From contig SMMW01000558.1 in NCBI GenBank assembly GCA_004794655.1, forward strand, positions 1 to 64,000: a DNA stretch of 64,000 nt, given 5' to 3'. How positions within the stretch are numbered: position 1 is the stretch's first letter; each line of letters begins with the position of its first letter. This document shows, piece after piece, positions 20,111-61,972 of this stretch. This DNA comes from Marisa cornuarietis (Eukaryota > Mollusca > Gastropoda > Architaenioglossa > Ampullariidae). A model generated the notes under the pieces. The model searched no databases. It saw only the letters and a program-made list of their open reading frames with translations, and was not told where the DNA came from. The position numbers were made by a program, and so were the translations under genes.

Positions 20111-23100
20111 TCACTTAATGTAACTTGAGTGGATAACGTCTGGGCAGTTGACGTACACAGCGTCCTCTAGTGAGTCACTGTCGACGTCTACCTCGTCCTG
20201 CACAGAAATACGTGCAGAAACCTCCCACTGATCCTTGACCCCGGAGTCAGTGGCGGTCAGAGGTAGAAGTCGTCGCACGGCACGTGACAGTCGCTGACCT
20301 GACAAACAATTGAAAGAGGGGAGTTGACCATTATTGCGTTTTAACAAAAACAAATGTTTTGGGAAAAATCAGATTAGGTAGCGCTACTTATCACATTGAT
20401 GTTGTTAGTTTTTTAAATATAACTACGCAGAAAGTATAAAACCGATCAAAAAATACAAAATAGAAGTTTTGGTGTAATGTAAGGAAATTAAACAACGTTC
20501 AGTCACTCATTTCGCATTGAAAATGACCTATAACCTCAGCTTTTGATCTCTGTCTTGTGGTTTGAATTCATTAAAAAGTATACCAGACGGAGTAGCCTAC
20601 CTAGGCTTGGTGACCGGACACTTAATCCCAGGACACGTAATCCCCAGACACTTAATCCCCAAATCGCGGCACAACACTCAAAACTGCTATTTTGTGAACT
20701 TTAAATAGTATAACCGTAAGAGAAATGTGTCGCGTGGTAACTCTGGGTAACTCTGGTAAGACTGGGATGTTATAAATGTTGAAGTTAAGTATTATATGAA
20801 TTTGAATTAAATTTTTCATTCACTTCATAATTTTTTGAGTTGAAATTTCATTTTGAGGATTAAGTGTCTGGGGATGAAGTGTCCGGGGATGAAGTGTCCG
20901 GGGATTAAGTGTCTGGGATCCCTAGGCTGGTAAAATCTACTACTCACAGGTAACATCTGAAACTGCGACTTTATCGTGCAGGACAGAGCCCCTGCCAATA
21001 ACAGTCGCCTGTACAGGGGAATAATACCATGTGACACAAAGACCAGGGGCCAGTTGCACAACATGTTTCTAAACCTTAAAACTGTTCTAAAGAAGCAAAA
21101 TCTCTTCTTAGCCATTTTGATCCATGGCACAAGAGCATACAAAAAAAAAAATGTACTGACAGGACGGAAAGTCAGACTTAAAGAACTTTATCTTACTTAA
21201 AGCAGTTTTAGTTTAAAAATTTTTTAAATTGTGGTGTGCACGTTAAACTAATTATCTAAATAGATTTCAGGCTTGAAAGTGTTTAAAATTAGAAATATGT
21301 TGTGCAACTGGCCCCTTAAATGTATTCTGGAGACCGTATGGTAATCTGGATTAATATAATGGTAAGAACTAGTCAATATATATTTTTCTTGAGTTCATAA
21401 TCTAAGAATAACATAGGTCATCAAATGTGGAATTAGACAAACCTGGTCGACATTGCGATGATTTTTTTACCTTAATAATATTGTTTCTAAAGAAACGAAA
21501 AAAGTCTTGTACTTGCTTAGTGATCGCGGTTTCATTAAGAGGGTTAAATAACTTCCGTATAGTCTTGCTGACTTAATAATTTCGATTTTTTTCTTGCTTT
21601 CGTTTCAGGATTTTTTTCTTTTGACTGAATAACGCATGAACAGTTTTTAAGGAGGGAATTTGTGCCATGCCGAAAGCTTAATAAACTATACTTGCTAAGT
21701 ACCTCATTAATCAAGGGTTTGTCTGGTTAATATTACCGAAGCAGTGGATTTATCCACTTTATCCAGTGGATAAATCCCTGGTCATGAATACTAGCCAAAA
21801 TGGCTTATTATCGATACATCACAACACTTACCCCAGTTCCATCGATCTTGCAGGACAGGGCTGCTAACATTTCCGTAGATGGGGTCGTTGAAAGACTCAG
21901 CATCGAGATCCACCTGCTGTTGTTGCTGCTGTGGTAGGAGGCTGTCGGCGTACTGGTGCAACGACACCACGGTGGGAGTCGATGAGTAAGCAGTACTCAC
22001 TCCCTGAGACATCCTCCTCCTCCTGTCCTCTGGACTTGCTTCCGCCGTAGTCATTGTTGCCCGTATGCTTCGCAAGCCTACAAGAAGAATCATCTGTTAC
22101 CTAATTTGAAGATCGAGGAGCATCAGAACATGGAAGCTAGCTGGTTACTAGTGTTTGATGCTGCATTTGTAAACCATATCAAATATTAATCGCAGTAACA
22201 GATATCCCTCTCGCCTTAAACTACTCCACTTAGTTAACATCTTTCTTAAAGTTTGTTGACTTAATTTTCACCTGGCAGAGGAGGCAATCTAATCAAAGGG
22301 GCTCTTCAATGTATGCCCCCTGATACTGTCTCTAAACCTACGCAATAAATTTAAGGTAGTTAATATATTAGCATCGATAAGGCCTTTAATGAACAAGCGT
22401 TGTTATATCCTTAAAATTCAATACCGAGTTTGTCTCTCAGTAACAAACGTCTCCTTGCTAACGTTTCTGTTGAACATTCATCGCCCTGTCAAGCTTCCCC
22501 CTGAATGTGGATCATTTTTTTCATGTTTGTTTGGACAACAAATGTCACCTACAGAATCTACATTACATTAGCCCTCACTAGCAAGTCCGATAACCTGTAG
22601 TGTATGAGTACTGTCCAACCATTCAGAGTACTCACGACAACAGAACAAAAACACAAAAACAAGAGCCACAGTGACGATTGTGCCGGTGCCGACAGCGACG
22701 ACGATGCTGGTGGGGTCTGTGGTGGTGGTGACGGTGGTGGTGACGGTGCTGTTTCCTGTTTCATAGTCTGGGAAACTTCCTTTGCTTTCTGCAACAAAAT
22801 GCGTTTCCCGGGGCCTGTGTTACTGGGGGATATTTTATGTCGACATTTGGTCTGTTATGAAAGGAGATTGTGGACAGTTTAATTGAAATTTCAAAAAAAA
22901 AACAAACAAACAAACAAACAAACAAACAAAAAACCCAACAAAACACGAATGCCCAAATAAAGTGTTAAAATGCAGATATCTGTGTTTCAAAGGATACTTT
23001 ACTCTGAATGTTGAGCATACAAGACAACTTGATAATTGCAATTATCACTGGCATGATCAATCCCTTCTTGTCAACTGGTGCTGAACCTCCGTTATTTAGA

Positions 23101-59402: not shown

Positions 59403-61972
59403 TCAGACGAGCCCCCAGTTAGTCGCCAGCATTAGGAAGCTGATGGTGATCATGTTCATTACAACAAACCCTGCCCCGGATGACCCAGGGGTGTCATCAC
59501 TCTCAAATTCACTTTGCTCACTCTCAGGTTCACTTTCTTCCGCAGCATCTTCGTCTTCTTCGCCATCCACGTTGTTGTTTTCAGTCTCATGTACATGTGG
59601 ACCAGGTGCATCAACTACAAAATGTGTCGTGGTAGCGACAGTGGCGACATCAACCTTTGGAGAAGTTGTCGTGGGAGTGGTGGTTGGAGATGGAATTGCC
59701 TTTAGTCTGATGGTGGTTGGTCTCGTAGCTGCAAAGTAGGAATATTTCCTTATATTTTGAGGAATAAGGAAGAAACTATTGAAAACCGTCACATACAGAA
59801 ACATACTCATATGCTATGAAAACTTAACACGCATGCACGCACACATAAACACTTTTGTGTACTGAAATAATATTAAACACAACAACACACACAGACATAC
59901 ACACACGATCGCACCCACACGCATCTGGCGTTTTCCTTTTGAATGACAACTGATTTATTCGAATGTCTCACCCGTAGTGTGGATGAGCATAAGCCGGTGA
60001 GATGTCCTTGATGGATGGATGGTCGTACGAGCAGCTGCACAAGGAAACACACACTCAGCATTAAAAACTAAAGAGAACAAAGAAGTTTCAGCTTCTGCGC
60101 TAAAAGTTTACAATATAATCACTTCCTCGTCTTCTTCTTTTTTTCTTTTTTTATATCTTTCGTACGTTTATCTTTCTCTGTCTGTCATTCACACATGCTT
60201 GCACACAAAACACACAGTTTATTTATGTGTACAATGGGTGCTGTTGTGTCACATCACCACTTCATCTTCGTGTTTTATTTCTTAATTGGACTTTTATTTG
60301 ATCTTCCGGTGGAGTGCATTGAGTTTTTTATTTTTATTTTACAGCGAAACACATAATAATTATAAGTGAACTTTGTACTAATCACTGTAAAGTACTTTGA
60401 GTCCTGCTGTTGCTGTAAGATGCTATCTTAATATGCTTGTTACTTGTATTATTTGTCGACCTGTCTACATGTTTACACTTTTCAATGTCGATTTTTCTCA
60501 CAATCTTACTTCTAAGTTAACTAGTTACATATAGGGGCTATTCGTAAACTAAAGATGGTCACATTAATTGTTTTAACAAAGATGGATTGAAAGACTGATC
60601 CATCGATGAATTGATTGATGGCTTAATGGATAATAAATTATGATGGGTCAATTATGGATTGAATGATGGACTGAATGACAATGGATGGATCAAATGACAG
60701 ATAATTGGACAGAGTTATTGACACTCACCAACAACATTGACGTTGACAAAGAATTGATTACTGTTTACTATACTGAAATACAAGGAGCCCTTATCCTCCT
60801 GTGTAAAGGTCATCTTCAGTCGGTATTGAAATTTCCCAGACTTTTCCCCAACACATTGGCATGATCCAAGTGCAACATTACAGCCGCTCGTCTTTGAGTG
60901 CTCTATCTGGCATTTCTTGTCATATGTGCCATCAGCTCGCTGATGCTGAACAATGATCCGTATGGGTCTATTCAGAGATGGAAAATCGTCGAGGAAGAAA
61001 TCCACGTTGGATTCCACCCCATTTTCAACAGTAATACTGTGGTAGTCATTTGAGAATTTCAGCTGAAAAGAACCTGTTGCAAGACAGGCAAATACAACTT
61101 ATTATTTTGTAGAATGACATTACTATTCAACTAAATAACTTTGATCAGTTTTTCTGACACATTGTCGAGAGCTTTGATAATTTTGTGCTCGCCAATGTGT
61201 GTTTGCTGGGTGAAAATGTGTGTGTGTGTGTGTGTGTGTGTGTGAGGGAGAGGAAGATTATGTGTGAAGGAGAGAGAGAGAACGAGAGACCATTGGCATA
61301 AAGCTTCTGAAAAGAGCTATTTCGAAAGCTCCTTTAAAATGTCATTGTACAAAAAAATCGATCTTAACTAAACACAGACATATTATTTATGAGAACAAGT
61401 TAAAACCTTTGTAATAAAACTGAGAGTTTTGTTGTGTCCTTAGCACTTAAGTTTTGCTGGTACAATACTTCTAAAGCTGTTTTTAGAGAACCGCACCCCA
61501 CATACTGTGAAAATGTACAGGCAAAATAAAAAACAAATACTAGCATACTAGCAACCCCCCCAAAAAAAACCAAACAAACAAAAAACTTAAAAAACAACAA
61601 AACAAAACATACAACAACAAAGAAATTAAAAATTATAAGAAATAGATGATTAACAATATAAACAATCATCATCAGACGACATACAAGACAGGTCGTCAAC
61701 AAAATATATGCAAATGAGTAAACAGTAATAAAGAAAATAATGTTTAACTCCTTTTAAGACTTGAAACTAGTTCATTTCCCTTCTAAGAGTGGATATTTTG
61801 CTAACATGTTGACAAAACTGGTAAATAGTTAATAATAAAAAATTCATGTACATAAAAGCAATAATAACAGTCTCGATTAAAATGAAATCTCACCTGTGGA
61901 AGGAAGGCAAGACATGAAAGACAGAAGCAGTGCCAAGAAAACTCTGTAAGAACAAACTCCTTTAAGAGCCAT
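59403..61972 (-). CDS. Receptor E: Ig-like protein with GPI-anchor-type C-terminus
   Basis: Four exons joined in phase 1: 61972-61894, 61073-60729, 60034-59972, 59728-59403; 813 nt, 270 residues plus TGA. Residues 1-26 are a signal peptide (YRVFLALLLSFMSCLPS). Residues 27-141 are an Ig-like domain with the family cysteines (KKCQIEHSKTSGCNVALGSC, then QC) and EDKGSLYFSI in place of D-x-G-x-W. A short basic stalk follows, then a Thr/Pro-rich and very acidic segment. The last residues read DTPGSSGAGF followed by a hydrophobic run to the stop with no charged tail. Small residues, a short spacer and a terminal hydrophobic stretch fit a GPI attachment signal, and there is no cytoplasmic exon. It is probably lipid-anchored on the cell surface, unlike receptors A-C. 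A very short-tailed transmembrane protein is the alternative. Confidence 0.82.
61217..61243. repeat. (GT)n microsatellite
   Basis: A short GT run in intron 1 of receptor E, followed by a GA-rich stretch. Confidence 0.93.

Follow-up and report, generated by a model that had tools for sequence, protein, structure and literature searches.

A candidate germline-encoded recognition repertoire built on a four-cysteine V-like domain in the gastropod Marisa cornuarietis

We analysed a stretch of 64,000 nucleotides of Marisa cornuarietis (positions 1 to 64,000 of contig SMMW01000558.1, assembly GCA_004794655.1), hereafter the window, in which five receptor-like loci, called A to E, all lie on the minus strand. 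They belong to a family that is a good candidate for a germline-encoded recognition repertoire, the outer part of the proteins being predicted to resemble an antibody variable domain. The observations made directly concern the anatomy of the genes, their copy number, the invariant cysteines, the predicted fold and the positions of the replacements, and we take them in this order.

Three genes were rebuilt in full by scripted exon joining: B with 5 exons (30569-26286 (-), 1041 nt, 346 aa), C with 8 exons (40215-34606 (-), 1374 nt, 457 aa) and E with 4 exons (61972-59403 (-), 813 nt, 270 aa). The three models have only GT-AG introns and internal phases of 1 throughout; their totals are divisible by three and there is no internal stop. 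This confirms what a sequence-only reading of the window had proposed, i.e. five loci on one strand and, for B, C and E, uniform phase 1 with exact multiples of three. The same reading gave all five loci a common architecture of leader, immunoglobulin (Ig)-like, stalk and tail exons; this stands for B, C and E, joined in full, with the reservation that B has no stalk exon other than its transmembrane (TM) exon, but it does not extend to D, whose membrane exon was not seen in a scan of the open reading frames (ORFs) of 40.2-47.3 kb, nor to A, which is broken. The phase 1-1 symmetry was rejected as a sign of novelty, since such exons are usual for extracellular modules. The joined exons are as follows.

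61894..61972, minus strand: E exon 1, signal peptide (MALKGVCSYRVFLALLLSFMSCLPST), ending in phase 1
60729..61073, minus strand: E exon 2, V-like domain with the four-cysteine pattern (AlphaFold model, see below)
59972..60034, minus strand: E exon 3, short stalk
59403..59728, minus strand: E exon 4, stalk (Thr-rich, acidic), small residues and C-terminal hydrophobic run, by eye like a glycosylphosphatidylinositol (GPI) signal
40164..40215, minus strand: C exon 1, signal peptide
39345..39680, minus strand: C exon 2, V-like domain
38173..38232, minus strand: C exon 3, stalk
37406..37468, minus strand: C exon 4, stalk
36675..36941, minus strand: C exon 5, Ser/Thr stalk and TM span (by eye)
35837..36097, minus strand: C exon 6, cytoplasmic tail with YLEN, YPLP and YQTH
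35071..35241, minus strand: C exon 7, cytoplasmic tail with YVNP, YLTP and YMIE
34606..34769, minus strand: C exon 8, tail end (YSEH, YMTT) and stop
30479..30569, minus strand: B exon 1, signal peptide
29389..29739, minus strand: B exon 2, V-like domain (AlphaFold model, see below)
28704..28844, minus strand: B exon 3, short stalk and TM span (by eye)
27748..28014, minus strand: B exon 4, tail with YMSP, YAGF, YSES and YGNI (also used in a genome search)
26286..26476, minus strand: B exon 5, tail end with YNNQ, SIYANV and stop

The V-like exon is recognised by its cysteines. In the window their first spacing is 8 in B and 9 in C, D and E, followed in each by C-x(6)-C-x-C; the pattern C-x(6-8)-C-x(6)-C-x-C earlier given for these four loci was right in its second part, the first spacing being 8-9. 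We aligned 43 distinct copies of the domain, retaining only matches that cover 85 profile columns or more; as the members were gathered by similarity, conserved columns are favoured in this alignment. Four cysteines (positions 55, 64, 71 and 73 in B numbering) and one glycine are invariant in 43/43 copies, and F24, D91, G93, W95 and F97 are conserved in at least 90% of them. The canonical disulphide between strands B and F is absent: F24 stands in strand B and F97 in strand F, and neither strand has a conserved cysteine. The motif of strand F, D-x-G/A-x-Y-x-C in V-set domains, takes the form D-x-G-x-W-x-F. A consensus-like phase-1 donor just after the domain was found in 30 of the 43 copies, by a strict pattern that misses B's own donor.

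Despite this cysteine spacing, the fold is predicted to be V-set. AlphaFold models of B (predicted local distance difference test, pLDDT, 85.8) and of E (pLDDT 91.3), together with structural comparison, give a V-set beta-sandwich, and the Foldseek matches of the B model include adhesion V domains: P0, CAR, MPZL1 and sodium-channel beta subunits. The claim that C-x-C is not the pattern of a standard Ig V or C2 domain thus holds for the spacing of the cysteines and not for the fold; of the structure predictions then suggested as a check, those run, B and E, agree on V-set. The domain was said to belong to no recognised named family, and indeed no Pfam Ig family matched any of the 43 members, or the whole B, C and E, at E<=1; only weak unrelated names appeared, below cut-off. 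A sequence search of the PDB returned about 30 residues of designed immunoglobulins, the remaining rows being at chance level.

The V-like exon recurs across the 534 Mb assembly, and this recurrence is more than chance. The haemocyanin genes mark this genome as molluscan: it gives 48 matches to the Haemocyan_bet_s family, and the one examined matches haemocyanins such as KLH1 in the PDB. All counts are lower bounds: the D exon found at least 71 places at E<=10 (the best besides itself at 3.8e-63) and the E exon at least 45 at E<=1, the union being at least 73 places, 59 of these at E<=1e-3. These 59 are distributed over contigs C371 (35), C430 (14), C56 (5), C369 (4) and C71 (1). Four of them are apparent second copies, two through an overlap between the end of C371 and C430 and two through a 47-kb near-repeat within C430, so that about 55 are left. 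In the overlap the loci compared are 99.75% and 99.79% identical over about 3.3 kb; in the near-repeat the single pair of loci compared is 98.9% identical. Either may reflect recent duplication or an uncollapsed haplotype. Orientation is uniform: of the 73 places, the 16 on C430 are minus without exception, and the 30 within C371:1.033-1.159 Mb are likewise all plus. Joined by the overlap, the C430 and C371 places would form, we infer, one head-to-tail array of about 240 kb holding 39 of the 59.

Between 1.07 and 1.16 Mb of C371, three domains follow each other at four spots and two at four other spots, with gaps below 1 kb; the same contig has another close pair at 290 kb. In the domain tree, of which 15 of 40 inner branches are well supported, the first and the third domains of multi-domain genes group by position in supported clades, as do the second domains, the 1072-kb locus excepted; this is the pattern to be expected if multi-domain genes were duplicated as a whole. 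Stops interrupt two of the 71 D-exon matches, C371:1125066 and C56:537859, and one of the 45 E-exon matches, the copy at C371:1148124, which has five. At C371:1125066 (L040:5027-5401 (+)) the in-frame stop falls in the first of the three V-like exons of its locus, both neighbours being open. The description of the cluster as diverged, partly broken paralogues with different anchors is supported, and the sequences point to a receptor-like paralogous family.

Between D and C, replacements are confined to residues 30-74 (17.5/107 non-synonymous sites; flanks 0/156). We compared a middle segment, residues 31-79, with its flanks in seven groups of close paralogues by a codon likelihood model. The ratios of non-synonymous to silent change (dN/dS, omega) for middle and flank are 0.92/0.63 in III, 0.40/0.59 in Ithird, 1.43/0.78 in Isecond, 0.89/0.25 in IIb, 0.68/0.37 in IIa, 0.91/0.18 in CD and 0.54/0.50 in I1033. 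Summed over the groups, the difference between middle and flank gives 2dL 43.35 (7 degrees of freedom, d.f., p 2.9e-7), and by subtraction 28.1 on 6 d.f. without the CD group; taken singly, four of the seven groups pass 3.84 (Isecond 7.9, IIb 10.8, IIa 4.6, CD 15.2). A permutation of the replacement rates, CD included, gives p 0.004 for middle against flank. Placed on the fold, the rate peaks in the loop of complementarity-determining region 2 (CDR2; 0.77), C'' (0.76), CC' (0.68) and C''D (0.68), against 0.32-0.40 in strands A, B, D, E, F and G; the two-residue FG turn stands at 0.64. Gene conversion of the flanks could be part of the cause of this contrast.

The anchors and the tails differ between genes. 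By eye, B and C have one hydrophobic span each, while E ends with small residues followed by a hydrophobic run, like a GPI-anchored protein. The tail of B has 6 tyrosines, three of them in YxN (shuffle p 0.002) and all six preceded, at no more than four positions, by an acidic residue (p 0.0009), as are 6 of the 8 tyrosines in C (p 0.08), these motifs having been picked after the tails had been read. pYxN is the Grb2-type consensus. Similar motifs are visible by eye in A (IYGNV, VYVNC) and in the gene that follows on the contig, at C430:73.4-69.8 kb (VYMNV). The labels ITIM and ITAM (immunoreceptor tyrosine-based inhibitory and activation motifs) were not adopted, for want of statistical support; no ITAM was seen by eye, no motif scan for it having been made.

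The two incomplete loci, D and A, consist of the following pieces.

54994..55044, minus strand: D exon 1, signal peptide MFVIIFTVWCVSSLQLS, open and with a phase 1 donor, read by eye
54331..54666, minus strand: D V-like exon, open, 86% identical to C by sequence comparison
41465..41613, minus strand: weak remnant like C exon 6 (tblastn E 0.002), possibly D's old tail
23240..23400, minus strand: A, readable part of the broken V-like exon (VEGVKYLTIGDAHRNLTLNLN, stop, LYFSFADMMDDNQ...)
22637..22762, minus strand: A, TM exon resembling B exon 3 by sequence match, 48% identity
21839..22075, minus strand: A, tail exon resembling B exon 4 by sequence match (IYGNVSSP), 42% identity
20123..20296, minus strand: A, last tail exon resembling B exon 5 by sequence match (AVYVNCPD), 36% identity

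A is a B-type pseudogene, since its V-like exon carries stops and no leader exon was established for it. In a D-like gene on C56, an open frame with a TM span follows the V-like exon at a distance of about 0.7 kb. Between D and C, at 46012-43589 (-, limits by eye), lie two half-SRCR exons, each just under the Pfam cut-off, and two Ig-type exons, one matching Ig_2/Ig_3 and the other no Pfam model; their phases are compatible by eye. We rejected the idea that they are a regular component of the family: the 10 kb covered at the D-like gene of C56 contain no match to these pieces, and this gene has its own TM-bearing frame, so that the SRCR and Ig exons are probably foreign to the core design; in the window they may be part of D or of a separate gene fragment. 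The same interval contains a fragment of RNase H and, at 49387-53740 (+), a non-LTR (long terminal repeat) element. This element lies downstream of D's V-like exon, and its ORFs carry a GDSL-like (ORF1), an endonuclease and a reverse transcriptase domain. Long (ATC)n arrays adjoin several receptor loci (19.9-20.07, 28.04-28.15 and 31.17-31.30 kb). Elsewhere in the window, a piece of KDZ (Kyakuja-Dileera-Zisupton) transposase with a CxC cysteine cluster occupies 14370-17167 (-); near it, the ORF 12155-12802 weakly matches the N-terminal domain of TRIF, below cut-off.

We consider it probable that these genes encode mollusc surface receptors, germline-encoded and with a V-set module, working like the Alr, FcoR or PTC clusters discussed below. 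B and C would be single-pass and E GPI-like anchored. The module contacting the ligand would be the V-set domain, in which two phenylalanines replace the B-F disulphide and the four invariant cysteines, presumably paired in disulphides, are placed on the C'-C''-D edge; ligand contact would fall on the C-C'-C''-D side, the part in which recent paralogues diverge most. In the TM forms the tails might be phosphorylated on tyrosine and dock SH2 adaptors, the GPI-like form being a putative non-signalling partner or decoy. The array would grow and decay by tandem duplication, both of entire genes and of symmetric phase 1-1 exons, leaving pseudogenes behind, and the receptors may serve to recognise non-self or other cells. 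We advance more tentatively, as a possibility and not an expectation, the full picture: a molluscan germline V-domain repertoire of dozens of genes in a chromosomal array, its core disulphide dropped, with a four-cysteine lattice under the most variable edge (CDR2/C''/D) and with forms that signal through tyrosines beside others anchored by GPI. It would have arisen independently as a counterpart to the natural killer (NK)-receptor, Alr and FcoR complexes.

Several results weigh against the recognition repertoire. The comparison of dN/dS between paralogues, suggested with the sequence-only reading, does concentrate the replacements in mid-domain, but overall omega does not exceed 1 in this segment (0.40-1.43 across the seven groups), the summed test of this segment against 1 (2dL 20.1) being driven by groups below 1; in the Ithird group the middle is even below the flank. 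The limits 31-79 were defined after the D/C differences had been seen, and the silent change (dS) of the D/C pair is also higher in the middle segment. As for the tails, that of C is not enriched in YxN (1 of 8 tyrosines, p 0.30), the single ITIM-like motif, SIYANV of B, has a shuffle p of 0.25 and C has none (p 1.0). The genome search with the B tail exon, at E<=1, matched only A and B, so that such tails are not common to the whole family. Finally, hhalign of the domain profile with eight canonical Ig domains of the same genome gave a probability of 1.1, not significant; the Ig assignment thus rests on predicted structure.

The predicted fold and the tails would also suit adhesion, neural wiring, or gamete or tissue recognition instead of an immune or non-self role, the V domains then binding conserved partner proteins: the Foldseek matches of B include the adhesion domains named above, and YxN motifs in a tail do not single out immune cells. 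We hold this unlikely, though worth keeping in mind, as local gene turnover, the pseudogene A, the raised omega of the segment and the split into GPI-like and TM forms are traits more characteristic of a recognition repertoire. Four cysteines kept in 43/43 copies, with D91, G93, W95 and F97 in at least 90%, a flank omega of 0.18-0.78, a common omega that differs from 1 (2dL 33.6, 7 d.f.) and the fully open B, C and E make it improbable that the cluster is largely decaying, its copies mostly relics and its diversity due to relaxed constraint and uncollapsed haplotypes; what speaks for such decay is the broken A, the membrane exon not found for D, the stops in 2/71 and 1/45 matches, the near-identity of the C371/C430 overlap and of the C430 near-repeat, and an overall omega near 1 in several close pairs. 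That the domain is a cysteine-rich beta sandwich of other descent, converged on a V-like shape, would agree with the absence of a Pfam Ig match, with solved proteins matched in sequence only over a short designed-Ig stretch and with the hhalign probability, and seems to us very improbable.

In invertebrates, allorecognition and resistance to parasites have time and again been mapped to clusters of single-pass receptors that evolve fast. A mollusc family of V type and of such size would supply concrete candidate recognition genes, lying outside Pfam Ig models and long-loop surveys, and would be a test of the extent to which a V fold can do without its core disulphide. Alr, FcoR and PTC/TM1 are likened to the Marisa family by what their published descriptions say of their working; the Ig-only TM1 genes may be kin. 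The Alr genes of Hydractinia, as described, are clustered Ig receptors with unusual V-set domains and, on candidate genes, tyrosine motifs (PMC11999971, PMC12065747); the likeness lies in these three features of a clustered invertebrate family, the difference in the domains, V-set and I-set in Alr, one to three copies of one four-cysteine V-like domain in Marisa. FcoR of Botryllus are described as clustered type I TM receptors with one Ig domain of the variable type and, in the tail, motifs of the ITIM, hemITAM or core tyrosine kind (PMC12065747). They resemble our family in their clustering, their variable-type domain and their tyrosine-bearing tails, but add sushi and two C2 Ig domains, for which B, C and E have no Pfam match.

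Among gastropods, the PTC1 (GRC), PTC2 and TM1 clusters of Biomphalaria are described as hyperdiverse single-pass TM genes whose ectodomains are rich in beta structure, some of them tied to resistance against schistosomes (PMC4361660, PMC7494358, PMC10875847). PTC1 is reported with fibronectin III (FN3) and TMEM154, neither of which B, C and E match in Pfam. The PTC1/GRC TM1 proteins are single-pass, with FN3 in part of the members; B and C show one TM span by eye and no FN3 match. The FREPs of gastropods associate V-like Ig superfamily (IgSF) domains, IgSF1 and IgSF2, with a fibrinogen domain (PMC7588048). They are thus like B, C and E as mollusc proteins with V-like IgSF domains, but differ in bearing fibrinogen, for which the apparently membrane-anchored B, C and E have no Pfam match at E<=1. 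The oyster CgIgIT2 is described as a transmembrane receptor of the Ig kind whose signalling is tyrosine-based and which recognises microbes (PMC11999971). As a mollusc TM receptor it is comparable, but it has five Ig domains and a classic ITAM, against one V-like domain and no ITAM by eye in B, C and E. With the V domains of NK receptors the likeness is in the domain fold, predicted here.

In B. sudanica, the LG16 and LG5 clusters are described as including TM1 genes with Ig as their only named domain (PMC10875847), and because such snail clusters of Ig-only single-pass genes are in print the kind is already known. The IgSF survey of B. glabrata is described as accepting only cysteine loops of 40 aa or more (PMC7588048), a rule that would pass over the four-cysteine V-like domain, which is not named in the titles and abstract openings of the open PMC literature searched. 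Within that literature, what appears new is the domain variant, and a family of this kind could be the reason that others like it have perhaps escaped notice when mollusc immunity was studied.

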